Shown here: in pieces, positions 18,932 to 47,002 of the stretch | Layout of the letters: each line of letters opens with the position of its first letter | Numbering within the stretch: position 1 is the stretch's first letter | Assembly: GCF_018224925.1 (NCBI RefSeq) | Contig: NZ_JAGTUF010000017.1 | Location: forward strand, 24,186 to 74,880 | From: Magnetospirillum sulfuroxidans | GTDB taxonomy: Bacteria; Pseudomonadota; Alphaproteobacteria; Rhodospirillales; Magnetospirillaceae | DNA: 50,695 nt | Direction: 5' to 3' | Translations under genes and position numbers: made by a program | Notes under the pieces: model-generated | Database searches by the model: none | What the model saw: the letters and a program-made list of their open reading frames with translations, nothing else | What the model was told of the DNA's origin: nothing

Positions 18932-18955
18932 TATTATTTTAGTGACATCTAGGTG

Positions 18956-20695
18956 ATGCGCAAAATCCGGCGTATGGTTTTCCATCTTTTTCAACCGCAA
19001 GCGTCGGCATCCACCATGAAGATCAAACTCGGAATTTCCGCGAAATTGATGACGACCATCCTGTTGATAGCGGTCGGCTTCATCACCCTGATCTCTCTCG
19101 CCAGTATTGAGCTGCGCAGTTCAATGATGGCCGACCGACAAGCCAAGCTGAAAAATCTGGTCGAATCCACCATCACAACCATCCAGTCGCTCCACGCGCT
19201 CAGCCAAAAGGGCGAGATGGACGAAGCGACGGCACAAAAGCTGGCGGCAAACGCAATCCGCAGCGCCCGCTACAACAGCACTGATTATTTCATCGTCTAT
19301 AACGACTCGACCTCCGTCATCGTTCATGGCGCCGACCCCAAGCGGGAAGGAATGAATTCTTCAGAAACCAAGGATGCCAACGGCGTCTATATTGGTCGCG
19401 GCATCATGGAGGCCGGAAGGCAAGGCGGGGGCTTCGTCGACTACGTCTATCCCCGTCCGGGGGAAAAGCAGCCGTCGCCGAAGCTGACCTATGCCCAGAC
19501 CTTCGCCCCCTGGAAATGGACAGTGGCGACCGGCATCTATGTCGATGACGTCGATACGGAATTCAACCGGGTCCTGATCCGTTTACTCATCGTCACCGCC
19601 TTGGTGATGGCGGCGGCCATCGGTCTGGTCTTGCTGATTTCACGCAATATCAGCGGCGGCATCACCCGATTGGTGCAGGTTACCGGCAAGCTGGCCCAGG
19701 GGCAGTTCGCCATCGACGTCCCCGGACAGGATCGCAGTGACGAAATCGGCACGTTGGCGCAGACGATCACCGTCCTGCGCGACGGCGCCGCTCAGGCGGA
19801 ACGCCTGCGCGGTGAACAAGACGCGATGAAGATCAAAGCCGAGCAAGACCGCAAGGCCAGCCTGAACAAGCTGGCGGAAGAGTTCGATCACAGCGTCATG
19901 GCGGTCGCCACCGGCATCAATTCCGCCGTCGGCGAACTTGAAGGCTCGGCTCAGGTGGTGTCCTCTGCCGTCAATACCGCCTCGGAACAATCAAGTTCCG
20001 TTGCGGCGGCGGCGGAACAAGCCTCGGCCAACGTCGCCACGGTGGCGACGGCAGCAGAGGAATTGTCGGCCTCGATCAGCGAGATCAGCCGTCAGGTCCA
20101 AGCCTCTTCGTCCATCTCGCGTGAGGCGGTGGACGAGGCCAAGCGCGCCAATGAACTGGTTGAGGGCTTGGCTCAGGCCGGCGACCGAATTGGCGAAGTG
20201 GTCAAGTTGATCAATGACATCGCCAGCCAGACCAATCTGCTGGCGTTGAACGCCACCATCGAGGCGGCCCGCGCCGGCGAAGCCGGCAAGGGCTTCGCCG
20301 TGGTCGCCAACGAGGTCAAATCGCTGGCCAATCAGACCGGCAAGGCGACCGAGGATATCTCGGCCCAAGTGATTTCCGTGCAATCGGCGACCCAACAGGC
20401 CGTCACCGCCATCCGCGCCATTGTCGGCACCATCAGCCGCATCAGCGAGATCGCCGGCTCCATCGCCTCGGCCGTCGAGCAACAAGGCGCCGCCACCCAG
20501 GAAATCGCCCGCAACGTCCAGCAGGCGGCGACCGGGACCAGCGAGGTCACCCGCCACATGGCCGATTTGAGCGGCGCCACCGGACAAGCCGGCACGGCGG
20601 CCGGCGGCATGCTGACCTCGACCCGCTATCTGGCCAGCGAGGCGCAGGGATTACGCAACCGGGTTGAATCTTTCCTGTCCAGCATTCGGAGCTAA
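18956..20695 (+). CDS. Methyl-accepting chemotaxis protein with single-Cache sensor
   Basis: A 579-residue membrane chemoreceptor. It has TM1 at about 32-50, a periplasmic sCache_2-type domain ([21 protein letters not shown], then [13 protein letters not shown] and [13 protein letters not shown]), TM2 at about 203-226, HAMP, and a cytoplasmic signalling domain. The conserved tip reads [20 protein letters not shown], which contacts CheA and CheW. The sCache motif is typical of receptors for small organic acids, but the ligand is unknown. There is no C-terminal CheB/CheR-binding pentapeptide. ATG 18956 is preferred; GTG 18953 and ATG 19016 are alternatives. No che genes are adjacent, so it works with a pathway encoded elsewhere. 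Confidence 0.95.
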
Positions 20696-25641: not shown

Positions 25642-26004
25642 TCACCCCAGCAATCCCGAGGCAACCTCGCGGTTGATGGCGATCAAGGGACGCACGTCGG
25701 CGGCGCCGCCGCTGATCAGCGCCTTGACCGTCTGGCGGTCGACAAACAGCGACAGACTGAGCAGATTGGCGCGCAAACTGATCGGCAGCGGATGGCTGTC
25801 GGGGGCAAGCAGGCGCTGCACCTGCGTCCACAGGCGCAGATTGCGTTTCAGCGCCGCTTCCAAGGCCGGCCGACCTTGCCCGCAACAGGTTTCAAGAAGA
25901 TTGGCGGCTTGGGAAAAGGCCAAGGAATCCGCTTGCCGCAGCGACAAGGCCGAACCCTGGGCGCGCCCATAGGCGCCATAGGGCGTATCCGGCGGCCGGA
26001 TCAT
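25642..26004 (-). CDS. flaF: Flagellar biosynthesis regulator FlaF
   Basis: A 120-residue protein with the FlaF pattern: N-terminal AYGRAQ, a central helix with NLRLWTQVQRLLAPD, then LPISLRANLLSLSLFVDRQT. In alphaproteobacteria FlaF acts with FlbT to control flagellin synthesis and secretion. It starts one base after the flagellin stop codon, so it is co-translated with it. The partner flbT, often adjacent, is not in this window. Confidence 0.87.
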   Translation of the reverse strand: MIRPPDTPYGAYGRAQGSALSLRQADSLAFSQAANLLETCCGQGRPALEAALKRNLRLWTQVQRLLAPDSHPLPISLRANLLSLSLFVDRQTVKALISGGAADVRPLIAINREVASGLLG

Positions 26005-26005
26005 G

Positions 26006-26821
26006 TCAGAACAAGGTCAGCAGCGACGATTGCGCCTGTTGCGACACGGTCTGACCGACCCGCGCCAATTTCTGCCGGGTCTGGGTCGCCACCAAAAGGG
26101 CGGCTTCCTCGTTCAGGTTGGCCTCGGTCAGCTTGCCCGCCCCCTCGGCCGCGATGTTGGCCTGATTTTGCACCGCCTCGGCACGAATGGACAAGGCGCT
26201 GATCGTGCTGCCCAGACTGGCTTGGGTGGCGTTGACGCTGCTGCGCGCCGTATCCAATTGGGACAAGGTGGCCGCGGAAAAAGTGCTGCCATCGGCAGCC
26301 ACCGCCGCCACCCCCAATCCAGTGGCGCTGACGTCTTGGGCTGCCACCGTCACATTGTCGCCGGTATTATTGCTGAACGCCACCGTCAAGGCCGAAGAGG
26401 ACGCGGACAGCAAGTTAACGCCGTTATAGCCGGAATCGGCGGCCAAGGAATCGATTTGCCCCCGCACCTGATTGTACTGCGTCGCCAACGAAGCCCGTTC
26501 ACTGGCGTTATCACTGCCGATGGCGGCGCTGGCGATGCCCTTCAACTGGTCGAGCAGGCTGTTGACGCCCTCGGCCCCGGCCTGGGCGGCATTGATGGTG
26601 GAAACCCCCTGCCCCACCGAATCCTTGACCGCCGCCAGATCGCCAGAGCGGTCGGTCAGGGCCCGCGCGGCGACAAAGGCCACCGCGTCATCGGTGACGC
26701 GACTGACTTTTTTGCCCGTCGACAGGTTTTGCGTCCGCTGTGTCGCCGCGCTGGCCAGACTTTGCTGCGTCGCCAAACTGGCACGCGCGCCCGCGGTCAG
26801 ATTGATGGAATCAACCGGCAT
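26006..26821 (-). CDS. Flagellin
   Basis: A 271-residue flagellin, the filament subunit. The N-terminal D0/D1 region (SINLTAGARASLATQQSL, then LSTGKKVSRVTDDAVAFVAA) and the C-terminal coiled coil (NLNEEAALLVATQTRQKLAR and the final SSLLTLF) are conserved. The variable centre (about 140-190) is short, giving a compact filament. There is no signal peptide, as expected for type III export. It heads a two-gene unit with flaF and is divergent from the secreted protein at 26933. No clear sigma-54 or sigma-28 site could be assigned upstream. Confidence 0.94.
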   Translation of the reverse strand: MPVDSINLTAGARASLATQQSLASAATQRTQNLSTGKKVSRVTDDAVAFVAARALTDRSGDLAAVKDSVGQGVSTINAAQAGAEGVNSLLDQLKGIASAAIGSDNASERASLATQYNQVRGQIDSLAADSGYNGVNLLSASSSALTVAFSNNTGDNVTVAAQDVSATGLGVAAVAADGSTFSAATLSQLDTARSSVNATQASLGSTISALSIRAEAVQNQANIAAEGAGKLTEANLNEEAALLVATQTRQKLARVGQTVSQQAQSSLLTLF

Positions 26822-27418: not shown

Positions 27419-30400
27419 CTAAGCCGGCAAGGCCACGCTGACCGTGGTGCCGCCCTCGTCGCCCTTGCCCAACCACATGTCGCCGCCATGCGCCTGTGCG
27501 ATGACCCGACAAATAGCCAGACCGATCCCGGTGGAATCAACCGATTGCCCGACCCCGGCCTCGAACGCCTGGGGATCATGGCTCAGTTGTTCCTGGGACA
27601 ATCCCGGCCCATCATCACAAATTTCCAGCACCCAGTCGCTTTCGCGTCGGCTCGCCCGCACCCGCACCCGCACCGCGTGATCACGGCCGCGATAGGTGAT
27701 GGCGTTGGCGAAAACCTGATTGAGCAATTCCATCAGCATGCCGCCATCGGCGTTCAGAACCGGCAAGGAATCGGCCTCGACCAGCAACACCGCCGGGCCA
27801 AACCGCCGGGCCATGTCGTCGGCCACCAGTCGGACCAAAGCGCTCAAATCCACCGGCGCCATTTGCGCCGACATGCTGATGATCGAGACAAAACGCTGGA
27901 AATCGCGCAACAGAACCGATAACCGGGTGATAGCCGTCGACACATAGATCACTTCATCTTGGCGATGCGGATCGCCGGCCTCCACCTCCAGCACGCCGGT
28001 CAGGATGCGAACATCGGCTTGCAGGGCGGCCAGCGGCACCTCAAGGTCGCGGGTGACCACGCCGAGCAAATCCCGCAATTGCCCGTTCAGACGTTCCAGA
28101 CTGGCGGCACGGGCATCGGACAAGGCACGGGCGGCTTCCAGTCCATGGGTTCGCCGCAAAACCTCGGCCGCCAATTCACCATGCTGCCGACGAATGCGGG
28201 TCATGCCGTGATCGACCATCCAGGCCAAACTCAACAACGCGATGGACAGCAGGGCGACAGCGCCGATCGCCACCCCCAATCCCTGGCGCCACGCGACCAG
28301 GGCCTTGTTGCGCGATACCGCCGACGTCACCACCAGCGGATAAGGCGACAGCAGGCGGTAAGCCAAATACTTGTCGTTGCCATCGGCCTTCGAGATCAGG
28401 TGCGCGGTGCCGATGGGGGATGCGGGCAGCCAGCGGGTGAACAAGTCGCTGGACGAAATATCCATGCCGAATTTTTCCACATGCGCCGGGGCGCGGGCGA
28501 TCATCTTTCCATCCGCCCCAATCAGGGCGGTACCGCCCTCACGATCCAGCAGAACCCGGTCGAGAAAACGGGCATAGAGATCGGGATCCACATTGGCGAA
28601 GACGATCCCGTTGAACCGCCCCTTGGGACTGCGCAACGGCCGCGCCACATGCAAAGAACGTTCATCGCCGATCCGGCCGCGCACCGGATCGCCGATGACC
28701 ATATTTGACTGGGCGGGATCGGCCTTGGCACGGGTGAAATAGCTCCGGTCCGTGATCGCGATACCGTTCTCGGGCAGCAGGCGGGGCGGCCAGACCAGAG
28801 TGGACATCTGACCGGCCGCATCCGCCAGACCGACATGGCGGATTTCGGGAAAGGCCCGCAAGATCGCTTCCATGCGGACAGAGAACGCCAGACTGAGGTG
28901 GTCCCCCTGTTCGATCGCCGCCGCCGCCTCGGCCAAAATGGTGTCGATGCCCCGCAATGACCCGGAAATCTGTTGATCGATGGAATTCGCCACCGCCCGC
29001 GTCAATACCTGAGCCGCATGAATGGCGCTATCGCGTTCCCGCTCGACTTGCCAAAATCCCGCCGCCGCCAAAGCCGCGATCAGCCCCAAGGCCTGAAACC
29101 GTGCGCCGAATTCGCCCCGCGTCGGTTCCGCCTGGGTGGGCGGCATCGCATCCGTTTCCTCGGCTTCCGAGGGCGGTAAATCCAGATAAAAGGTAGCGTC
29201 GGCAAAGGTCAGGGGCTGGTCATTCAGGCCGGCCAGGGACAGACAAACCCGAACCGCCACCGAATTTTCCGCCCCCTCGCGCAAGGCGCCGTCACCGCGG
29301 ACGACCAATTGCCACCCTTCCGGCCGATGCCGGGCGCCAACCGCGATGGAAGCCGCCCCCAAGCCGTCGAGAGTTCGGAAAATCTGCACCAGCAACTCGC
29401 CCGTGGCCTGACGCTGCACCGACAGCACCGGCAGCGATTCGGGCCTGATCGCCACCCCGGTTCCGGCATCGACCATGGCCCGCTGCATCACTTGCCGCAA
29501 TTCCGCCGCCTCGGCCGGGGCATCAATGCTGAGACTGGCCACACGCTGCTGAAACCCTTTCAGCAGCGCCTTCATGTCCTTGCCGCCCTGGATCAGGTGC
29601 GCCAGCACCTGTTGGCCGGTCAGCAAATCCCCCGGCAGACGCCGCCCCAGCATCTGGCTATAGCTGACCAACGGCCGTAACGGCTCTTGCAGATGATGCG
29701 CCGCCACCATGGACAGACGTTGCAATTCGCGGTTGGCGGCGCTGACTTGGCGCGCCCTTTGTTCCAAAACGGCACGCGCCTGCCGCACTTCGATCCCGCG
29801 TCGGACGACCAGTTCCTCTAATCCGTCACGGGCGGAAATCACCTGGCGCCAGGCCAAATCACCGCGCCGCGCCCACGCCAGAATGGCAAAGCAAAACAGC
29901 AAGAACAGGGCGATTTCCAAAGCGGCATTGACGCGCCAAAGCTGAAACGCGCTGTCGTGGCTGGCCGCCACCCAAACCCTGAGGTCCAGATTTTCCACCG
30001 GCAACGTCGCGCCGATCTGTTCGGGGCTGGCCACCGCCAAACGGGCAAAAAGGGTCTGGTGGTCAGGGGCCGCCGCCGCGATCAGGCCCGAGCCATGAAC
30101 CACCGCCACCATATCGGTCTCGACGACCCGCACCGTTTCCAAAAAGGCGGCAAGGCTGTTGGCGTCCGTCAGCGTCACCACTGCCGCCGGACCGCCATTA
30201 AGAACAAAGATACGGGCGACCACCATCAGACGCCGGCCTTGGCTTGCATCCACATAGGGCGGCCCAACCACCAGCCGGGCTTCGCCCCGCCCCATTTGCG
30301 ACAACAGCCACGTCACCTGCGGCAGCGCCAGTTGTTGGTCCCCCATCAACGACAGCGTCCGGCCGTTATTGTCCAGCACGATCAATTCGTCGATTTCGGG

Positions 30401-30712
30401 AAAAGCGGTCAGCCGCTCCCGCAGGTGGTTGAGAATGGCGGGGGTTTGGTGGTGATTGGCTTGGACCTGAGCGCCGGTCTCATCCAGCAATGCGGCGATG
30501 CCGCGCATCTGACCGCCCACATGCTGTTCGATGGCCTGAGCAAGGGTCGCGGCCATCAGCCGAGCATCGGCTTGCGCCTTGGTGTGGCTGCTCCACAGAT
30601 GAGCAATCAGCAGACCGCTCAGACACGCCAGCAAAAGCACCGCGACCACAGGCACCGGCCGCAACAGGCGTCTTGCTCCACTAATGATGGCGACAGACCC
30701 ATGGTTGTGCAC
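27419..30712 (-). CDS. Tandem two-module sensor kinase with complementary degenerate halves
   Basis: A 1097-residue membrane protein made of two successive sensor-kinase modules. Module 1: TM 21-40, a Cache-like periplasmic domain (about 45-258), TM 262-281, a coiled coil, a HisKA-type helix with AAHHLQEPLR (His339 in the phospho-acceptor position), then a degenerate ATPase region (424-512) without recognisable N, G1 or G2 boxes. Module 2: TM about 540-556, a Cache domain with ITDRSYF and VIGDPVRGR (570-800), TM 812-833, a HisKA-like helix in which the acceptor is Arg888 (TRDLEVPL), then an intact HATPase with Asn1003, DDGPG (1033-1037) and TGIGLAICR (1061-1069). No HAMP or receiver domain is seen and no response regulator is adjacent. 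The GTG at 30712 is the start. There is no frameshift across the module junction. Confidence 0.88.
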   Translation of the reverse strand: MHNHGSVAIISGARRLLRPVPVVAVLLLACLSGLLIAHLWSSHTKAQADARLMAATLAQAIEQHVGGQMRGIAALLDETGAQVQANHHQTPAILNHLRERLTAFPEIDELIVLDNNGRTLSLMGDQQLALPQVTWLLSQMGRGEARLVVGPPYVDASQGRRLMVVARIFVLNGGPAAVVTLTDANSLAAFLETVRVVETDMVAVVHGSGLIAAAAPDHQTLFARLAVASPEQIGATLPVENLDLRVWVAASHDSAFQLWRVNAALEIALFLLFCFAILAWARRGDLAWRQVISARDGLEELVVRRGIEVRQARAVLEQRARQVSAANRELQRLSMVAAHHLQEPLRPLVSYSQMLGRRLPGDLLTGQQVLAHLIQGGKDMKALLKGFQQRVASLSIDAPAEAAELRQVMQRAMVDAGTGVAIRPESLPVLSVQRQATGELLVQIFRTLDGLGAASIAVGARHRPEGWQLVVRGDGALREGAENSVAVRVCLSLAGLNDQPLTFADATFYLDLPPSEAEETDAMPPTQAEPTRGEFGARFQALGLIAALAAAGFWQVERERDSAIHAAQVLTRAVANSIDQQISGSLRGIDTILAEAAAAIEQGDHLSLAFSVRMEAILRAFPEIRHVGLADAAGQMSTLVWPPRLLPENGIAITDRSYFTRAKADPAQSNMVIGDPVRGRIGDERSLHVARPLRSPKGRFNGIVFANVDPDLYARFLDRVLLDREGGTALIGADGKMIARAPAHVEKFGMDISSSDLFTRWLPASPIGTAHLISKADGNDKYLAYRLLSPYPLVVTSAVSRNKALVAWRQGLGVAIGAVALLSIALLSLAWMVDHGMTRIRRQHGELAAEVLRRTHGLEAARALSDARAASLERLNGQLRDLLGVVTRDLEVPLAALQADVRILTGVLEVEAGDPHRQDEVIYVSTAITRLSVLLRDFQRFVSIISMSAQMAPVDLSALVRLVADDMARRFGPAVLLVEADSLPVLNADGGMLMELLNQVFANAITYRGRDHAVRVRVRASRRESDWVLEICDDGPGLSQEQLSHDPQAFEAGVGQSVDSTGIGLAICRVIAQAHGGDMWLGKGDEGGTTVSVALPA

Positions 30713-34011: not shown

Positions 34012-34055
34012 TCCGTTTACAGCATTGCCCCCGACAGCGGAACGCGGCACTCTGA

Positions 34056-34069
34056 CATGCTTAAGCATG
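34056..34069. promoter_or_regulatory. 14-bp perfect palindrome before the second chemoreceptor
   Basis: CATGCTTAAGCATG is a perfect palindrome 13 bases before the ATG at 34082. Its position near the ribosome site (GGGGGTG) would allow a dimeric repressor to block expression, or a small hairpin to modulate translation. Confidence 0.3.
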
Positions 34070-34081
34070 GGGGTGCTGAAA

Positions 34082-36142
34082 ATGAAAATCCGCCACTTCT
34101 TCTTCTTGTGCATGTCCATGGTCGGCGCGCTGGCCTTGCTGTCGGCGCTGAGCATGGTCGTCGACGCCACCAGCAGCCGAACCCGCGTCATCAGCGCCAA
34201 GCAATTGGTCGCCGGCCAGGGGGCGTTGTTGCAATTGGCCGAACTGGTCAGCCTGGAGCGCGGATCGCACAACCTGGCCTTGACCCGCCCCCCGGCGGTG
34301 ACCGCCGACGAAGCCGCCAAACTGGCCAGCGAGCGTGACAGCACGGACAAGGCCTTTGCCGGCGCCATCGAGGTGCTGCCGCCGCTGTCGGCCAAGACCA
34401 TCGGCGACTGGCAGGCAAAGTTGCACGCCGCCCGCGCCCCCATGACCGCCGCTCTCGTCAAGCCGCTGGAGCAGCGCGAGCCCGGTTCCGCCAAAACCTG
34501 GACCACCGCCAATTTCGCTGTCGGCGACGCCGCCATCGCCGAAGGCGGACGGCTGCTCCAGGAACTCAACCGTCTGGACGGCAATGTCGGCGATTTCGTC
34601 ACCCAGGCCCACGCCGCCGCCAGCCTGCGCAACATCGTCGGCCAGCGCAACACCACCCTTCTCAACGTCATCGCCGCCGGCAAACCGATGAACATGGGAC
34701 AGGCGGAAAGGCACGCCCGCTTCAGCGGTCAGGTCGATCAATTGTGGGAAACCATCAAAAGCCAGACCGCCTTTCTCGAAAGCGGCAGCGATGTTCCGGC
34801 CAAGATCGCCGCGCTACAGGCCGCCATTTTCGGCGAGGTTCAGGCCGTCATCCACACCATGGAAGAAGCGTCACGGACGCAAGCTCCCTATCCCATGAGC
34901 GCCGGCGAGTTCCGCCAAAGCACGGTCAGCAAGTTCGCGGCCATCGCCGATCTGCGCGACGCCTATGTCGCCCGCGCCGATGCCCTGTGCGACGAGGAAC
35001 TCGGCGCCCTCAACCGCCGCCTGATGCTGGCGGTCGGCATGCTGGCGGTTCTGGCCGGCATGATCGTCATTGTCACCATCGTCTTCAATCGCCGGGTGGT
35101 GTCGTCCTTGATGCAGATGGCCCAGACCATCACCAGCATGGCCGGCAACGACCTGGGCGTGATCGTTCCCGGCCGTGATCGCCACGACGAAATCGGCCGC
35201 ATCGGCCAAGCGTTGGAAACCTTGCGGCTGAATGCCGTCACCGCCCGCGAGGCGGAAACCACGGTAACCGCCGAACGTGCCGCCCGCGATGTTTCGCGTC
35301 GTCAGACCGACGAAAAGCTGGAAGAATTCGCCACCCAGGTGGATGCGCTGATGGTGGCGGTGCACGACAATATCGGCGCCTTGCGGCGCAATTCCGATGA
35401 TTTGGGACGCTTGGCCAAGGATGCCTCGGATGGTTCGGGCGATGTCGCCCGCGCCGCCGAACAGGCCGCCGTCAACGTCCAGACCATCGCCACCGCCACC
35501 GAGCAATTGCTGGCCTCTATCGGCGAGATCAGTCAGGTGGTCGTCAACATGGCCAACGTCTCGGCCGAAGCGGTGCAACAAGCCCGGCAATCGCGCGAAA
35601 CCGTGCATGAATTGACGACCGCCGCCGATTGCATCGGTGAAATCGTCTCGCTGATCACCACCATCGCCAGCCAGACCAACCTGCTGGCGCTCAACGCGAC
35701 GATCGAGGCTGCGCGGGCCGGCGATGCCGGCAAGGGCTTCGCCGTGGTCGCCAACGAGGTCAAGGCCCTGGCCAATCAAACCGCCAAGGCGACCGAGCAG
35801 ATTCAAAATCAGGTCGCCGCCATCCAAAAAGGCTCGAACAGCGCCTATCGCGCCATCACCGGCATTGATCAGATCGTCGGCCAGATCAGCGAATTGGCCA
35901 CCTCGATCGCCTCGGCGGTCGAGGAACAAAATTGCGCCACCGCTGAAATCTCCCGTTCGATCCAACAGGCTTCCGACGGCGTCGGCGAAGTCGCCAACAC
36001 CATCGCCGTGGTCCGCGTCAGCGTCGATTCAACCGAACATTCCGCCTCGGAGGTCAGCCGTTTCACCTCGCAGGTGGCGAACGAAACCGACGGCCTGCAT
36101 CAGCGTTTTGGCAATCTGGTCACATTGCTGCGCCAGCATTAA
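34082..36142 (+). CDS. Methyl-accepting chemotaxis protein with helical periplasmic domain
   Basis: A 686-residue chemoreceptor starting [13 protein letters not shown]; the GGGGGTG ribosome site supports 34082 over 34025 and 34067. TM1 is at about 7-27. A long, mostly helical periplasmic domain follows (about 30-310, with [15 protein letters not shown] and [14 protein letters not shown]), possibly NIT-like. TM2 is at about 313-335, then HAMP and a signalling domain with the conserved tip [20 protein letters not shown]. The ligand is unknown. No CheR/CheB pentapeptide is present. It is separate from che genes. Confidence 0.95.
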
Positions 36143-42005: not shown

Positions 42006-43895
42006 ATGCTGCATATCAACGACCTTGTTTTCCGCTTTGGCGGCCGCGTCTTGTTCGACCAGGCCAGTGTGCATATTCCGGCAGGGGCCAGGATTGGCTT
42101 GGTCGGCCGCAATGGCGCCGGCAAATCGACGCTGTTCAAGCTGATCTTGAACGAACTGGCCGCCGATGGCGGCGATATTTCCATCCGTCCGCGCGCCCGC
42201 ACCGGCTGCGTCGCCCAGGAAGCGCCCGAAGGCGAGACCAGCTTGCTGGATTGCGTGTTGGCGGCGGACATCGAACGCAGCCAGTTGTTGGCCGAGGCCG
42301 AACACAGCCACGACCCCCATCGTCTGGCCGAGGTGCATGAGCGCCTGAACGCCATCGACGCCCATTCGGCCCCGTCGCGGGCCGCCTCCATCCTGGCCGG
42401 CCTGGGTTTTGACGCCGTCCAGCAGGCGCGTCCGGTGTCGTCTTATTCCGGCGGCTGGCGCATGCGTGTCGCCCTGGCCGCCGTCTTGTTCATCCGCCCC
42501 GATCTGCTGCTGTTGGACGAGCCGACCAACCATTTGGATCTGGAAGCCACGCTGTGGCTGCAATCCTATCTCGGCAGCTATCCCGGCACCTTGCTGGTCA
42601 TCAGCCATGACCGTGAATTGCTGAACGAGGTGTGCAACCGGATCGTCCATCTGGAGCGGACCAAGCTGGTTTCCTATGGCGGCAATTACGACGATTTCGA
42701 ACGCACCCGCCGGGAAAAGATGGATCTGGCCGCCAAGGCCCAGGTCAAGCAATTGGAACAGCGCCGCAAGATTCAATCCTTTATCGACCGCTTCCGCGCC
42801 AAGGCCACCAAGGCCCGGCAAGCGCAAAGCCGGATCAAGATGCTGGAGCGCATGGGGCCGCCCATCTCGGTGATCGAGGATCGCAGCATAAGCTTCGACT
42901 TCCCCGACCCCGACGCCCTCAGCCCGCCGATCATCGCCATCGACAACGGCATCGCCGGCTATGGCGATAAGACGGTGCTGGCGGATCTGAACATCCGCGT
43001 CGACATGGACGACCGTATCGCCCTGTTGGGGGCCAACGGCAACGGCAAGTCAACGCTGTCCAAGGTGCTGTCGGGACGCCTGAAACTGCTGTCTGGCGAC
43101 ATGCATCGTCCCGCCAAGCTGCGCATCGGCTATTTCGCCCAGCACCAGACCGACGAGTTGGATCTGGGCCGCACGCCCTATGATCACATGCTCGATCTGA
43201 TGAAGGCGGCGCCCGAATCCAAGGTCCGCGCCCAATTGGGCCGTTTCGGTTTCGAGCAAGACCGCGCCGACGTCAAGGTCGAGAACCTGTCCGGCGGCGA
43301 AAAGGCCCGGCTTTTGTTCGCGCTGATGAGCCGCGACGCCCCGCATCTGATGATCTTGGACGAACCCACCAACCATCTGGACATCGATTCGCGCGAAGCC
43401 CTGGTGGCGGCGCTCAACGCCTATGAAGGCGCCGTGGTGCTGGTCAGCCATGACCCGCATCTGGTCGAACTGGTGGCCGATCGCCTGTGGCTGGTCGCCG
43501 ATGGCAAGGTTGCCCCCTTTGACGGCGATCTGGCCGATTACCGTAAATTCCTGCTTGATCAGGCCCGCGACGCCCGTCGTGGTGGTGGAGGGGGGGGTGA
43601 ACGCCCATCCGCCGCCACCCGCAAGAATGACCGCCGGGCCGCAGCCGAAGCCCGCGCGCAAACCGCGCCCTTGCGCAAGAAAGTGCAGGATGCGGAAAAG
43701 CGGCTGGAAAAACTGAACCAGGACAAGACCAAACTTGCGGCCAAGCTGGCCGATCCCAAATTGTACAGCGGCCCCGGCGAAACGGTCACCGCCTTGCAAA
43801 AGGAACTGGCCAATCTGGAGCGAGAGATCGCCGACACCGAAAGCCTGTGGCTTGAGGTGCATGAACAACTGGAAGCGGCGACCGCAAGCGCTTAG
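42006..43895 (+). CDS. ABC-F family ATPase (ribosome-associated type)
   Basis: A 629-residue protein with two ABC cassettes and no membrane domain. Cassette 1: GRNGAGKST, SSYSGGWRMRVALAAVL signature, LLLLDEPTNHLD. Cassette 2: GANGNGKST, LSGGEKARLLFAL, LMILDEPTNHLD. The P-site linker (about 220-300) with KAKQLEQRRK-like basic helices lies between, and a coiled-coil tail covers about 540-629. Both nucleotide sites look intact. Relatives (Uup, YheS, EttA) act on ribosomes; the tail resembles the Uup/YheS type. It is divergent from ndk. Confidence 0.94.
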   Translation: MLHINDLVFRFGGRVLFDQASVHIPAGARIGLVGRNGAGKSTLFKLILNELAADGGDISIRPRARTGCVAQEAPEGETSLLDCVLAADIERSQLLAEAEHSHDPHRLAEVHERLNAIDAHSAPSRAASILAGLGFDAVQQARPVSSYSGGWRMRVALAAVLFIRPDLLLLDEPTNHLDLEATLWLQSYLGSYPGTLLVISHDRELLNEVCNRIVHLERTKLVSYGGNYDDFERTRREKMDLAAKAQVKQLEQRRKIQSFIDRFRAKATKARQAQSRIKMLERMGPPISVIEDRSISFDFPDPDALSPPIIAIDNGIAGYGDKTVLADLNIRVDMDDRIALLGANGNGKSTLSKVLSGRLKLLSGDMHRPAKLRIGYFAQHQTDELDLGRTPYDHMLDLMKAAPESKVRAQLGRFGFEQDRADVKVENLSGGEKARLLFALMSRDAPHLMILDEPTNHLDIDSREALVAALNAYEGAVVLVSHDPHLVELVADRLWLVADGKVAPFDGDLADYRKFLLDQARDARRGGGGGGERPSAATRKNDRRAAAEARAQTAPLRKKVQDAEKRLEKLNQDKTKLAAKLADPKLYSGPGETVTALQKELANLEREIADTESLWLEVHEQLEAATASA

Positions 43896-43971
43896 AGTGT
43901 CTGATGTCTTCTCCCTTGCCCATAGCCGCGACGTGACCAACCAGGGCCAACGCCAATCCCTTCTGCCTCCG

Positions 43972-45657
43972 ATGAACGTGGCGCCGCGCCAGACGTTGCG
44001 GGCGCTGATCGTCAGCGTCACCGTGCTGATCGTCATCACCTGCGGCCTGTTCCTCGCATATTTGCGCGGCGAGGTCCTGCATGCCGCCGAGGAAAAAGCC
44101 GCCTCGGTCGCCCGCCTGCTGGAAGAACACATCTCTCGCACCTTCCGCACCGCCGACTTCATCGTCGAACAGGTCGCCCTGCTGGGCCGGACCATGCCCA
44201 TGGACCAATTGGGGGCATCGGAAGCGGCCTGGATGCACCTGACCGAACTCAAGCGCGGCATGCCTGAACCGGGCACCTTGTGGATCATCGACAACAAGGG
44301 CCGCGCCCGTTTGGGCACCCTGGCCTTCCCCATCCGCCCGATCTCGGTCAGCGACCGCTATTACTTCACCGCCCACACGGAAAAGCGCCGCGATCTGGTC
44401 ATCGGCCCGTTGGTGCAGACCAAGCAACGAGATTCCCAGGCCTTTCATCTCAGCCGCCGCATCGACGATGCCGACGGCAACCTTGCCGGTATCGCCGCCG
44501 CCGGCTTCGACGCCATCACCTTCACCGATTTCTATCGCAATCTTGGCCTGGGACCCCATTCGGTTCTCACCGTTTCCGGCCTGGACGGCCGCATCATCCT
44601 GCGCCAACCCGACCCCGAGCAATGGGCCGAAATCAGCGTGCCGACCGGGCCGCTGATGAGCGCGATAAATGCCGGCCGCACCCGCGGCATTTTGCGCACA
44701 GCCTCGCCCTTGGACGGGGTTGAGCGGGTGTTGGCCTATCGGGTTCTGCCCGATTTCGGTGTTGTCGTCTCCACCGGGGTGGCGCTGGACGACGTGCTGT
44801 CCAACTGGTGGGACACCGCGCTTTTGACCATAACGGCGGTTCTGTTGCTGATGGGTTTGCTCGGATGGCTGACCGCCATGGCCTTCGACAGCCTTAAGCG
44901 TGAAGAGGAACTGATCCAAGGCCTGGAAGAAACCGTCCGCGACCGAACCCACGAGGCCGAGCAACGGGCGGAAGAAGCGCGGCGGGCCAATGACAGCAAG
45001 ACCCGCTTCCTCGCCGCCGCCAGCCACGATTTGCGCCAACCGCTGCAAGCCGCCGGCATGTTCGTCGAAGCTTTGTCAGCACGGCTGGGCAACAGCCCGC
45101 ACCAGAACATTGTCGATAAGATGCGGCAAAGCGTCGATGCCACCCAGGCCCTGCTGGCCACCCTTTTGGATGTCTCGACACTCGAAGCCGGCCATATCGA
45201 GCCGGTCCCGACCACCTTCTCGGTAGCCCCCATGCTGACCGCCCTGGTCGAGCAACTCGAGCCCGAAGCCAGCAAACGCAATCTTGTTCTGCGACTGGTG
45301 CCCACCGACGCCGAAATAATCTCGGACCCGGTCCTGCTGGAACGGATGCTGCGAAACCTGCTGTACAACGCCTTGCGCTATACCAAGGAAGGCAAAATCC
45401 TGGTCGGCTGCCGCCATCGCGGCAACAAGATCGCCATTTGCGTCGTCGATACCGGTATCGGTATCCCCGAGGACAAATTCACCGCCATCTTCGAGGATTT
45501 CTCTCGCCTGGGGGTGAAGGGGCATGGCTCGGATCGCGGCTTGGGCCTGGGCTTGGCGGTGGTGCGACGCATGGCCGAACTGTTGGGGCATGGCATCGAA
45601 GTCCGATCCCAGGTGGATAAGGGGTCGTCTTTCGCGGTGATCGTCCCCCTCGCCTGA
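43972..45657 (+). CDS. Cache-domain sensor histidine kinase
   Basis: A 561-residue membrane kinase. TM1 is at about 8-28, then a dCache-like periplasmic domain (VSDRYYFTAHTEKRRDLVIG), TM2 at about 281-303, a coiled coil with RDRTHEAEQRAEEARRA, HisKA with the acceptor His352 (ASHDLRQPLQ), and an HATPase with an N box (LLYNALRYT), DTGIGIP and GLGLGLAVVRR. All key residues are present, in contrast with the tandem kinase at 27419-30712. No receiver domain is attached and no regulator is adjacent; the neighbouring HD-GYP gene has none either. The start at 43972 has a weak ribosome site; GTG at 43933 or 43897 is possible. Confidence 0.92.
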   Translation: MNVAPRQTLRALIVSVTVLIVITCGLFLAYLRGEVLHAAEEKAASVARLLEEHISRTFRTADFIVEQVALLGRTMPMDQLGASEAAWMHLTELKRGMPEPGTLWIIDNKGRARLGTLAFPIRPISVSDRYYFTAHTEKRRDLVIGPLVQTKQRDSQAFHLSRRIDDADGNLAGIAAAGFDAITFTDFYRNLGLGPHSVLTVSGLDGRIILRQPDPEQWAEISVPTGPLMSAINAGRTRGILRTASPLDGVERVLAYRVLPDFGVVVSTGVALDDVLSNWWDTALLTITAVLLLMGLLGWLTAMAFDSLKREEELIQGLEETVRDRTHEAEQRAEEARRANDSKTRFLAAASHDLRQPLQAAGMFVEALSARLGNSPHQNIVDKMRQSVDATQALLATLLDVSTLEAGHIEPVPTTFSVAPMLTALVEQLEPEASKRNLVLRLVPTDAEIISDPVLLERMLRNLLYNALRYTKEGKILVGCRHRGNKIAICVVDTGIGIPEDKFTAIFEDFSRLGVKGHGSDRGLGLGLAVVRRMAELLGHGIEVRSQVDKGSSFAVIVPLA

Positions 45658-45733: not shown

Positions 45734-47002
45734 GTGAACGCCATGGAAAAAAACTCAGCGCCCCTGGGCGGGCTTTCCATCGATCTTGGCCGCGTCGCCC
45801 ATACGGTGACCAAGGCGCTGGATTATGTCGGCGTCGATGACAAAAGCCACGGCCGCCGGGTCGGCTTGGTCTGTCACCGGATCTCACATTATTTGGGCTG
45901 GGATCGCCAGACCCGGCATTTCATGCTGATCGCCGGCATGATCCACGATTGTGGCGTTTCCTCGACCGCGACCCACCAAAAACTGATCGACGAGATGGAA
46001 TGGGTCGGCGCCGACGATCATTGCCTGCGCGGGGCCGCCTTTTCCCGCAGCTTCGCCCCCTTCGCCCCCTATTCCACCGTGATCCGCCATCACCATGACC
46101 GCTGGATCAACCTTCCGGATCATCTGGACGCGCAAACCAAGGAATTCACCAATCTGGTGTTTCTTGCCGATCGTTTCGACGTGGTCCGCGCCGGTTTTCT
46201 TGCCGATCATCAAAACTTCGAGGTCTTGCGTGCCCGCGACCAATTGACCGGCTTGCTCGCCCCCCATGTGGGCACATTGTTTTCGCCGCGCCTGTTTGCC
46301 GGTCTGCTGGAAGCGGTGCAAAAGCATGCTTTTTGGATGGAGCTGGAAGACGAATTCCTTGACGGGGCCATCTTCGAGACCCTGGCCTATTGGGATCACT
46401 GGATAGATTTGGGTTTCGACGACATCATCGCCTTGGGCGAGATGGTCTCGCATATCGTCGATGCGAAAAGCCCGTTCACCCATTATCACAGCCTGCGTGT
46501 CGCCGACCTGACCCACGCCCTGACCGGGCTGTTGAATTATCCGCCTCAGCAGCGGCAATTGCTGCGCATGGCGGCGTTGTTGCACGATGTCGGCAAGCTG
46601 CGAACACCCGATGAAATTTTAGAAAAGCCCGGCGCCTTGAGCGAAAGCGAGCACGACCTGATGCTGCGCCACCCCCTGGACAGCAAGGTGGTGCTGACGG
46701 CGTTGTTCCCCAACACGCCCATCGCCAACTGGGCCGCCCACCATCACGAAAAACTGAATGGATCGGGCTATCCCTATGGCTGGAGCGGCGATCAAATCGA
46801 CGCCGAAACCCGAGTATTGACCATCTGCGACATCTTCCAGGCGCTCTGCCAAAAGCGCCCCTATCGCCCGCGCCTGCCGGTGGAAGAGGTGATTAAGATC
46901 ATGAGCCGCATGCAAGATAACGGCGAGATCGACGCGGACCTGTTCGCCCTGGTCCTGAGCCATCGGGATGTTTTGTACCAAATCGCCATCCGCGAGGGGT
47001 AA
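45734..47002 (+). CDS. HD / HD-GYP tandem phosphohydrolase, probable c-di-GMP phosphodiesterase
   Basis: A 422-residue cytoplasmic protein with two HD domains. The N-terminal HD (about 35-150) has His39, His71-Asp72, HHHD (119-122) and Asp146. The C-terminal one (about 250-400) has His252, His284-Asp285, Lys288, His313, HHH (336-338), GYP at 345-347 and Asp366, which is the HD-GYP signature for hydrolysing c-di-GMP to GMP. There is no receiver domain. A GGAG seven bases before the GTG at 45734 supports that start. It follows the Cache kinase by 76 bases on the same strand and may be controlled together with it. Confidence 0.9.
   Translation: MNAMEKNSAPLGGLSIDLGRVAHTVTKALDYVGVDDKSHGRRVGLVCHRISHYLGWDRQTRHFMLIAGMIHDCGVSSTATHQKLIDEMEWVGADDHCLRGAAFSRSFAPFAPYSTVIRHHHDRWINLPDHLDAQTKEFTNLVFLADRFDVVRAGFLADHQNFEVLRARDQLTGLLAPHVGTLFSPRLFAGLLEAVQKHAFWMELEDEFLDGAIFETLAYWDHWIDLGFDDIIALGEMVSHIVDAKSPFTHYHSLRVADLTHALTGLLNYPPQQRQLLRMAALLHDVGKLRTPDEILEKPGALSESEHDLMLRHPLDSKVVLTALFPNTPIANWAAHHHEKLNGSGYPYGWSGDQIDAETRVLTICDIFQALCQKRPYRPRLPVEEVIKIMSRMQDNGEIDADLFALVLSHRDVLYQIAIREG

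Follow-up and report, generated by a model that had tools for sequence, protein, structure and literature searches.

A tandem sensor transmitter of Magnetospirillum whose two modules have lost complementary functions

Locus and domain architecture

The window analysed here is a stretch of 50,695 nucleotides of Magnetospirillum sulfuroxidans (contig NZ_JAGTUF010000017.1, positions 24,186 to 74,880 of the forward strand), and the subject is one gene on its minus strand, encoding a tandem sensor transmitter. The protein is composed of two successive modules, each with a Cache sensor between transmembrane (TM) helices, a DHp hairpin bearing the phospho-acceptor column, and a CA (ATP-binding) domain. 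These modules have lost complementary functions. Module 1 has kept the acceptor histidine and lost the N, G1 and G2 boxes of the ATPase (the N-box Asn is replaced by Thr, and neither G1 nor G2 is complete); module 2 has an Arg in the histidine column and all ATP boxes intact. Both losses had been claimed in an original prediction made from the DNA letters alone, which also gave the open reading frame (ORF), its length and the two diagnostic codons correctly but did not remark on His340 or on the degenerate state of Cache1. The features of the gene, in window coordinates, are as follows.

27419..30712, minus strand: tandem sensor transmitter gene, dCache-DHp-CA twice; 1097 amino acids, GTG start at 30712
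29858..30655, minus strand: TM1, Cache1 and TM2 (residues 20-285); degenerate sensor in the six orthologues
29528..29734, minus strand: DHp1 (residues 327-395); conserved, putative phospho-acceptor and regulator-docking hairpin
29696..29698, minus strand: His339 in the phospho-acceptor column, codon CAT; His in all seven module 1 copies
29693..29695, minus strand: His340 at position H+1, which in most HisKA kinases is occupied by Asp or Glu; His in all seven module 1 copies
29177..29527, minus strand: pseudo-CA1 (residues 396-512); HATPase relic without complete N, G1 or G2 boxes or ATP lid, deleted in genome G004
28223..29107, minus strand: TM3, Cache2 and TM4 (residues 536-830); intact dCache_1 sensor
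27857..28084, minus strand: pseudo-DHp2 (residues 877-952); His replaced by Arg (three copies), Thr (three) or Ala (one)
28049..28051, minus strand: Arg888 in the phospho-acceptor column of module 2, codon CGC
27422..27856, minus strand: CA2 (residues 953-1097), HATPase_c; Asn1003, DDGPG and TGIGL intact, Gln999 at N-box position -4, Ala1052 in the lid

The hidden Markov model search that the original prediction had proposed bears out this division. In the Pfam comparison of the 1097-residue protein, HATPase_c matches a single stretch, at residues 992-1096 in module 2, and HisKA appears only below threshold, at residues 331-384 in module 1. The dCache_1 and dCache_1_like families exceed the Pfam cut-off, the best stretches of both lying in module 2. 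No receiver family is present among the Pfam matches (E up to 1) of the seven tandem proteins described below.

Conservation of the reciprocal losses

A search of 13 genomes of the genus revealed the tandem protein in seven: the window protein, five full or near-full orthologues with 55-62% identity to it, and a distant homologue in G004 (1034 amino acids, 38% identity over the matched part). One orthologue (G012) is broken over two contigs; that of G007, showing the same pattern, comes from a single-contig genome. In the aligned columns, the phospho-acceptor His of DHp1 is present in all seven proteins and an intact CA1 in none. The corresponding column of DHp2 never holds His, being occupied by Arg in three copies, Thr in three and Ala in that of G004. 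The Asn, Asp-Gly-Gly and Gly-Gly residues of the N, G1 and G2 boxes of CA2 are kept throughout (7/7). Where a CA1 relic exists (six copies), its N-box Asn has become Thr (five, the window protein among them) or Ala (one), the Asp of G1 is gone with the middle Gly column still Gly, and both Gly of G2 are gone. The G004 protein lacks CA1 entirely, the order being DHp1, a Pro-rich linker and TM3, and keeps the His of DHp1. The split-kinase pattern, with the acceptor missing on one unit and the ATP site on the other, is thus found in all seven members within one chain. With neither a His at position 888 nor an intact first ATPase in any tandem homologue, the reciprocal-loss observation is confirmed and strengthened by the orthologues.

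As a reference, 56 ORFs were recovered, of which 46 were left as relatives after removal of the tandem rows and of locus L046 (two ordinary G004 kinases). These 46 may include proteins that are not single-module, L037 being by eye a hybrid with receivers. Twenty-eight of them, picked for closeness together with some outgroups, were aligned; the remaining 18 enter no count. The acceptor His and all boxes occur in every aligned relative (28/28).

No tandem was found outside the genus at the cut-offs used, in a family scan with a single-module query (55 genomes). None was found in the order (317 genomes) or in samples of the class (385) and phylum (398); in all three of these scans two candidates per genome were scored, and distant tandems could be missed. 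A scan of named genome contigs confirmed three loci: L040 (G005) and L041 (G012), both already counted, and L042 of Methylomonas, a 30% match to the ATPase region. The contig of L040, VBWB01000008.1, carries the tandem gene at 62% identity under the title Stygiobacter sp., which may be wrong.

Relic domain and mosaic conservation

That the ATPase region of module 1 is a real HATPase relic is shown by a profile-profile alignment with CA2, which spans 56 columns with five sequences on either side (hhalign probability 92.7, E 4.4e-7). A full-length AlphaFold model built with three sequences has a mean pLDDT of 56.2 and a pTM of 0.37, and only its secondary structure was used. At this level, the predicted strands and helices of pseudo-CA1 (block pLDDT 62-83) follow the same order as those of CA2, and the ATP-lid stretch comprises 10 residues in pseudo-CA1 versus 27 in CA2.

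When the two copies of each domain in the six orthologues (window protein included) are compared by identity with the 28 relatives, the better conserved copy alternates along the chain: Cache2, DHp1, CA2. DHp1 exceeds DHp2 against 26-28 of the relatives, CA1 exceeds CA2 against none, and Cache1 exceeds Cache2 against none or one. In G004 the two Cache domains are about equal (module 1 ahead in 16/28), DHp1 is ahead of DHp2 in 27/28, and CA1 is absent. Invariant positions in the first DHp helix number 19 of 37 in DHp1 and 6 of 37 in DHp2.

The ratio of non-synonymous to synonymous substitution rates (dN/dS) was obtained by simple pairwise estimates for six pairs. In the three closest ones (G007/G005, G008/G012 and G008/G011) it amounts to 0.14-0.21 for DHp1, 0.13-0.20 for CA2 and 0.15-0.20 for Cache2, compared with 0.24-0.28 for pseudo-CA1 and 0.29-0.39 for pseudo-DHp2. 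Within each of these pairs, DHp1, CA2 and Cache2 lie below both pseudo-domains, and all folded domains stay below 0.4. The low values of the pseudo-domains indicate that these are still constrained; they probably also still fold.

These data bear on a further reading, namely a decaying gene with both modules eroding, or a sequencing or assembly fusion of two genes. As decay would have it, two catalytic domains are clearly degenerate, and so is one sensor in six of the seven proteins. The same architecture nevertheless recurs in seven genomes with invariant CA2 and DHp1 motifs, six of them carry the gene at the same position between aroC and an FG-GAP gene, and dN/dS is below 0.4 in every folded domain of the three closest pairs; this reading is very improbable. 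Chance, frameshift or assembly fusion was ruled out, given that G004 and the six syntenic genomes all share this architecture. The assembly error that the original prediction had named as its own possible undoing also fails against the same tandem in seven genomes, of which that of G007 is a single contig.

Sensor domains

Two motifs of Cache2, one DRxYF-like and one DGNDKxLAYR-like, have been lost from the corresponding columns of Cache1 in the six orthologues. Both motifs are also present, in varied form, in many relatives, and the Cache1 of G004 retains versions of both. Because of these losses, the further claim of the original prediction, that two separate Cache sensors feed the kinase, is weak; Cache1 is degenerate in the six orthologues, and the presence of two working sensors in the window protein is doubtful.

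Origin and genomic setting

In a tree of the Cache and DHp parts, all module 2 copies form one clade (100/99), close to which stand the HH/HQ-type proteins of G003, G020 and G030. The module 1 copies of the six orthologues form a separate clade. In the DHp-only tree, module 1 (92/91) and module 2 (99/94) each constitute one clade. Approximately unbiased (AU) tests reject neither module 1 (p 0.22) nor modules 1 and 2 together (p 0.15) as one clade. The residue at H+1 is Asp in four and Gln in three of the seven module 2 copies, and His in all module 1 copies. The simplest history, though unproven, is that the tandem arose once in the genus and then underwent complementary loss.

The tandem gene follows aroC, which encodes chorismate synthase, in the same orientation and starts 57 bases past its stop; a promoter and terminator scan came out near expectation. 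The six orthologues lie in one syntenic block, fabI-aroC-kinase-FG-GAP gene-flagellin-FlaF. In the seven genomes of the genus without an orthologue here, no kinase match was found on the aroC stretch (flanks of at most 1.5 kb). Matches to aroC and the FG-GAP gene are close neighbours with no kinase match between them in G001, G006, G003, G004 and G009 (L087, L088, L089, L092 and L093); no FG-GAP match was seen in G002 and G010. The site is thus empty in five genomes, the kinase having been gained in the carriers or lost elsewhere. The G004 tandem gene lies elsewhere, between two other large PAS-bearing sensor kinases (1024 and 881 amino acids; L046:4574-13189), so that its locus is an array of three kinases.

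Other signalling and motility genes are present in the window. Flagellin-like and FlaF genes (25642-26821) are close to the kinase, and chemoreceptor (MCP) genes lie at 18953-20695 and 34025-36142. Positions 43735-45657 encode another dCache-HisKA-HATPase kinase, in which both HisKA and HATPase_c exceed the cut-off, and an HD-domain (HD_5) gene comes next, at 45734-47002.

A probable composite transmitter in one chain

DHp1 and CA2 probably form one composite transmitter in a single chain. Five features of the sequences argue for it: (i) the reciprocal losses in all seven tandem proteins, as opposed to 28 of 28 relatives with both functions; (ii) the G004 protein, which has deleted CA1 yet keeps the DHp1 His, with Ala in DHp2; (iii) the domain-by-domain alternation of the better conserved copy; (iv) the dN/dS of DHp1, CA2 and Cache2, lower than that of the pseudo-domains in the closest pairs; (v) the HHxxExxR box, found also in the closest relative of solved structure. 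The proposal holds for either direction of phosphate flow, because kinase and phosphatase activity would both require cooperation of CA2 and DHp1.

From these patterns we infer the cooperation of CA2 with DHp1, together with a direction of phosphate flow and a regulator. A dCache-DHp-CA protein would have been duplicated in tandem, or two relatives fused, within the genus. Afterwards the ATP-binding domain would have been lost from module 1, which retained the DHp hairpin, and the phospho-acceptor from module 2, which retained both its sensor and its ATP-binding domain. In the present protein, Cache2 would sense a periplasmic ligand, CA2 would bind nucleotide and dock on DHp1, either that of its own chain or that of the other chain in a dimer, and the response regulator would be handled at the surface of DHp1. 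The chemistry would probably be phosphatase-biased, with autokinase activity weak or absent.

Several observations weigh against this proposal. The three remoter dN/dS pairs are partly saturated and less clear; between the window protein and that of G008, pseudo-CA1 (0.25) lies below CA2 (0.28) and Cache2 (0.38), and between the window protein and that of G004 the ratio reaches 0.77. In the Cache and DHp tree, module 1 of G004 joins the module 2 copies (95/80). Because the H+1 residue differs between the modules, they may stem from different types, and a fusion of two types is as conceivable as a duplication of one. The loss of the lid Arg/Lys in all seven CA2 copies could mean that this domain only binds nucleotide or is a scaffold. 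The AlphaFold model of the full-length chain is poor (pTM 0.37), and the number of independent observations is small, all seven sequences coming from one genus with that of G004 as the sole distant one. Finally, no receiver was detected by Pfam among the scanned neighbour proteins of the window, of G004 and of G020, or in one such protein of G003; the scan did not take in every neighbouring ORF, nor any at the five orthologous loci.

The receiver scan and the G004 protein are also relevant to another explanation, in which some other kinase or regulator feeds DHp1, a histidine phosphotransfer (HPt)-like or regulator-docking platform, and CA2 works for signalling with pseudo-DHp2 alone. The DHp1 of G004 indeed has no adjoining CA domain, and in TodS the second transmitter is described as a phosphotransfer domain (PMC3018481), within a His1-Asp1-His2-Asp2 relay according to the sections cited of PMC4321377. 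A receiver for such a relay is absent from the chain and from the neighbour proteins scanned, and CA2 would be kept without a substrate, DHp2 having no His, which makes the explanation distinctly improbable.

Kinase or phosphatase

The module 1 H-box reads HHLQEPLR in all seven copies, with His at H+1, Glu at H+4 and Arg at H+7; the acidic H+1 residue expected of an autokinase is absent throughout. At position -4 of the CA2 N-box, Gln is found in 7/7, and Asn in 20 of 23 HD-type and none of five HH/HQ-type relatives. The basic residue of the lid, aligned with the FxR position of the relatives, is Thr (six copies) or Ala (one) in CA2 as opposed to Arg/Lys in 28/28 relatives. The tandem proteins therefore combine, in all members, the two sequence traits of HH-type phosphatases, an HHxxExxR box and the loss of the N-box -4 Asn. 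Five relatives, L019, L020, L077 and L078 (HH) and L015 (HQ), are single-module dCache transmitters with the lid Arg and the N-box Asn intact, and are candidate natural phosphatase-type transmitters.

For CA2, as for the DHp-CA part of L020, one of the relatives, the best match of solved structure is a bacteriophytochrome (8sgk, 8avv). These entries, listed as 'Bacteriophytochrome' without an organism, are taken here to be DrBphP of Deinococcus radiodurans, consistent with the H-box spacing. Its His648 is presumed, from alignments, to stand in the N-box -4 column, and the lid position of CA2 is likewise equated by us with Arg430 of HK853.

In the published account of these residues (PMC8292422, sections cited), the general base is an acidic residue at H+1, a position where His is very rare; D529H at H+1 inactivated the kinase Agp1, and H533D failed to make DrBphP a kinase. 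DrBphP, which has His533 at H+1 and Glu536 at H+4, is described there as a phosphatase that depends on ATP, is activated by light and shows no kinase activity, Arg539 at H+7 playing a subsidiary role. Arg430 of HK853 is reported as important for autophosphorylation (PMC6429454).

The altered key residues and the HHxxExxR box shared with DrBphP suggest a phosphatase bias, and the composite transmitter is probably phosphatase-dominant, this being only slightly preferred to a kinase. What speaks against a pure phosphatase is that CA2 has intact N, G1 and G2 boxes and that the lid Arg is present in the four HH relatives. An intact-looking H-box of the HH kind need not mean a kinase. Of the statement in the original prediction that the halves together make one full kinase, the cross-module transmitter stands as the natural reading of the reciprocal losses in 7/7; the kinase part is called into question by the His at H+1, the Gln at N-4 and the Thr/Ala in the lid of all seven proteins, along with the DrBphP-like box.

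A true autokinase, in which CA2 phosphorylates His339 in the chain or across the dimer and the phosphate is then transferred to a regulator, is a special case of the composite transmitter. His339 is invariant, as are Asn1003 and the G1 and G2 positions in CA2, DHp1 is conserved with low dN/dS in close pairs, and the split kinases CheA3/CheA4 are described as acting in this way between two chains (PMC3591291). Set against this are the invariant His at H+1, a substitution that abolished Agp1 activity (PMC8292422), the invariant N-box -4 Gln, and the Thr/Ala in a lid that is basic in every aligned relative; the autokinase is possible, and rather unlikely. The lid and H+1 changes, pointing away from kinase catalysis, could also fit a protein that is neither kinase nor phosphatase and whose DHp1 (and CA2) would bind a regulator, as a sensor or scaffold, and so control a different kinase. 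DivL, which is non-phosphorylatable at its His site, is reported to sense DivK-P by its transmitter (PMC4211667). The conservation of His339, not needed by DivL, and of the N, G1 and G2 boxes (7/7 each) makes this improbable here.

A more specific form of the composite transmitter is offered tentatively, and may well not hold: DHp1 might pair with the pseudo-DHp2 of its own chain in a mixed four-helix bundle that has a single acceptor and a single functional ATP domain. The protein would then be a single-chain pseudo-heterodimer: through tandem duplication and complementary degeneration, the obligate dimer seen in ordinary histidine kinases would have become one asymmetric chain, probably with a phosphatase-dominant output. 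One acceptor and one ATP domain may suffice in principle, because the CpxA structures, as far as the cited part describes them, indicate transfer in trans and mainly one phosphorylation event per dimer (PMC3904827). If DHp1 and DHp2 do pair in one chain, the protein would be a natural asymmetric transmitter with covalently separated acceptor and ATP site, and cis/trans and half-of-sites questions would become approachable without engineered heterodimers.

Comparison with known systems

Complementary degeneration after duplication is a scenario usually invoked for pairs of genes. Here it has apparently taken place between two modules of one polypeptide, and both a more decayed form, with CA1 deleted, and intact single-module relatives are at hand.

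Each of the known systems shares part of this organization. DrBphP has the HHxxExxR box of module 1 (PMC8292422); it differs in being a single module with a photosensor, and by our reading of the alignments its N-box -4 residue is His, versus Gln here. DivL of Caulobacter and relatives, like module 2, is described as lacking a phosphorylatable residue in the His column and retaining the other boxes (PMC4211667), but it is a separate protein with no linked module carrying the missing His. TodS-type transmitter-receiver-transmitter-receiver (TRTR) phosphorelays also possess two transmitters per chain (PMC4321377, PMC3018481). In contrast to the tandem protein, which has no receiver and shows complementary losses, they keep both acceptor sites, place a receiver between them, and use PAS sensors with no TM segment.

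Such arrangements are infrequent. Non-hybrid kinases with two transmitters accounted for 2 of 15,704 proteins in one survey and are rare (PMC3018481, part cited), and HisKA proteins in SMART without a HATPase domain for 1556 of 42,417 (3.66%; PMC3591291, part cited). No published case of reciprocal losses in one non-hybrid chain was recognised among the top-ranked literature matches, subscription journals being mostly outside the coverage.

The best functional parallel is the CheA3/CheA4 pair of Rhodobacter sphaeroides, in which, as here, acceptor and ATP-binding functions reside on different units; according to the sections cited, neither protein is active alone and CheA3 is also a phosphatase (PMC3591291). 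These are two separate CheA-type proteins (P1, P3, P4), whereas the tandem protein unites HisKA modules and membrane sensors in one chain. It thereby adds a new variation to the split-transmitter theme, as its losses lie within a single polypeptide.

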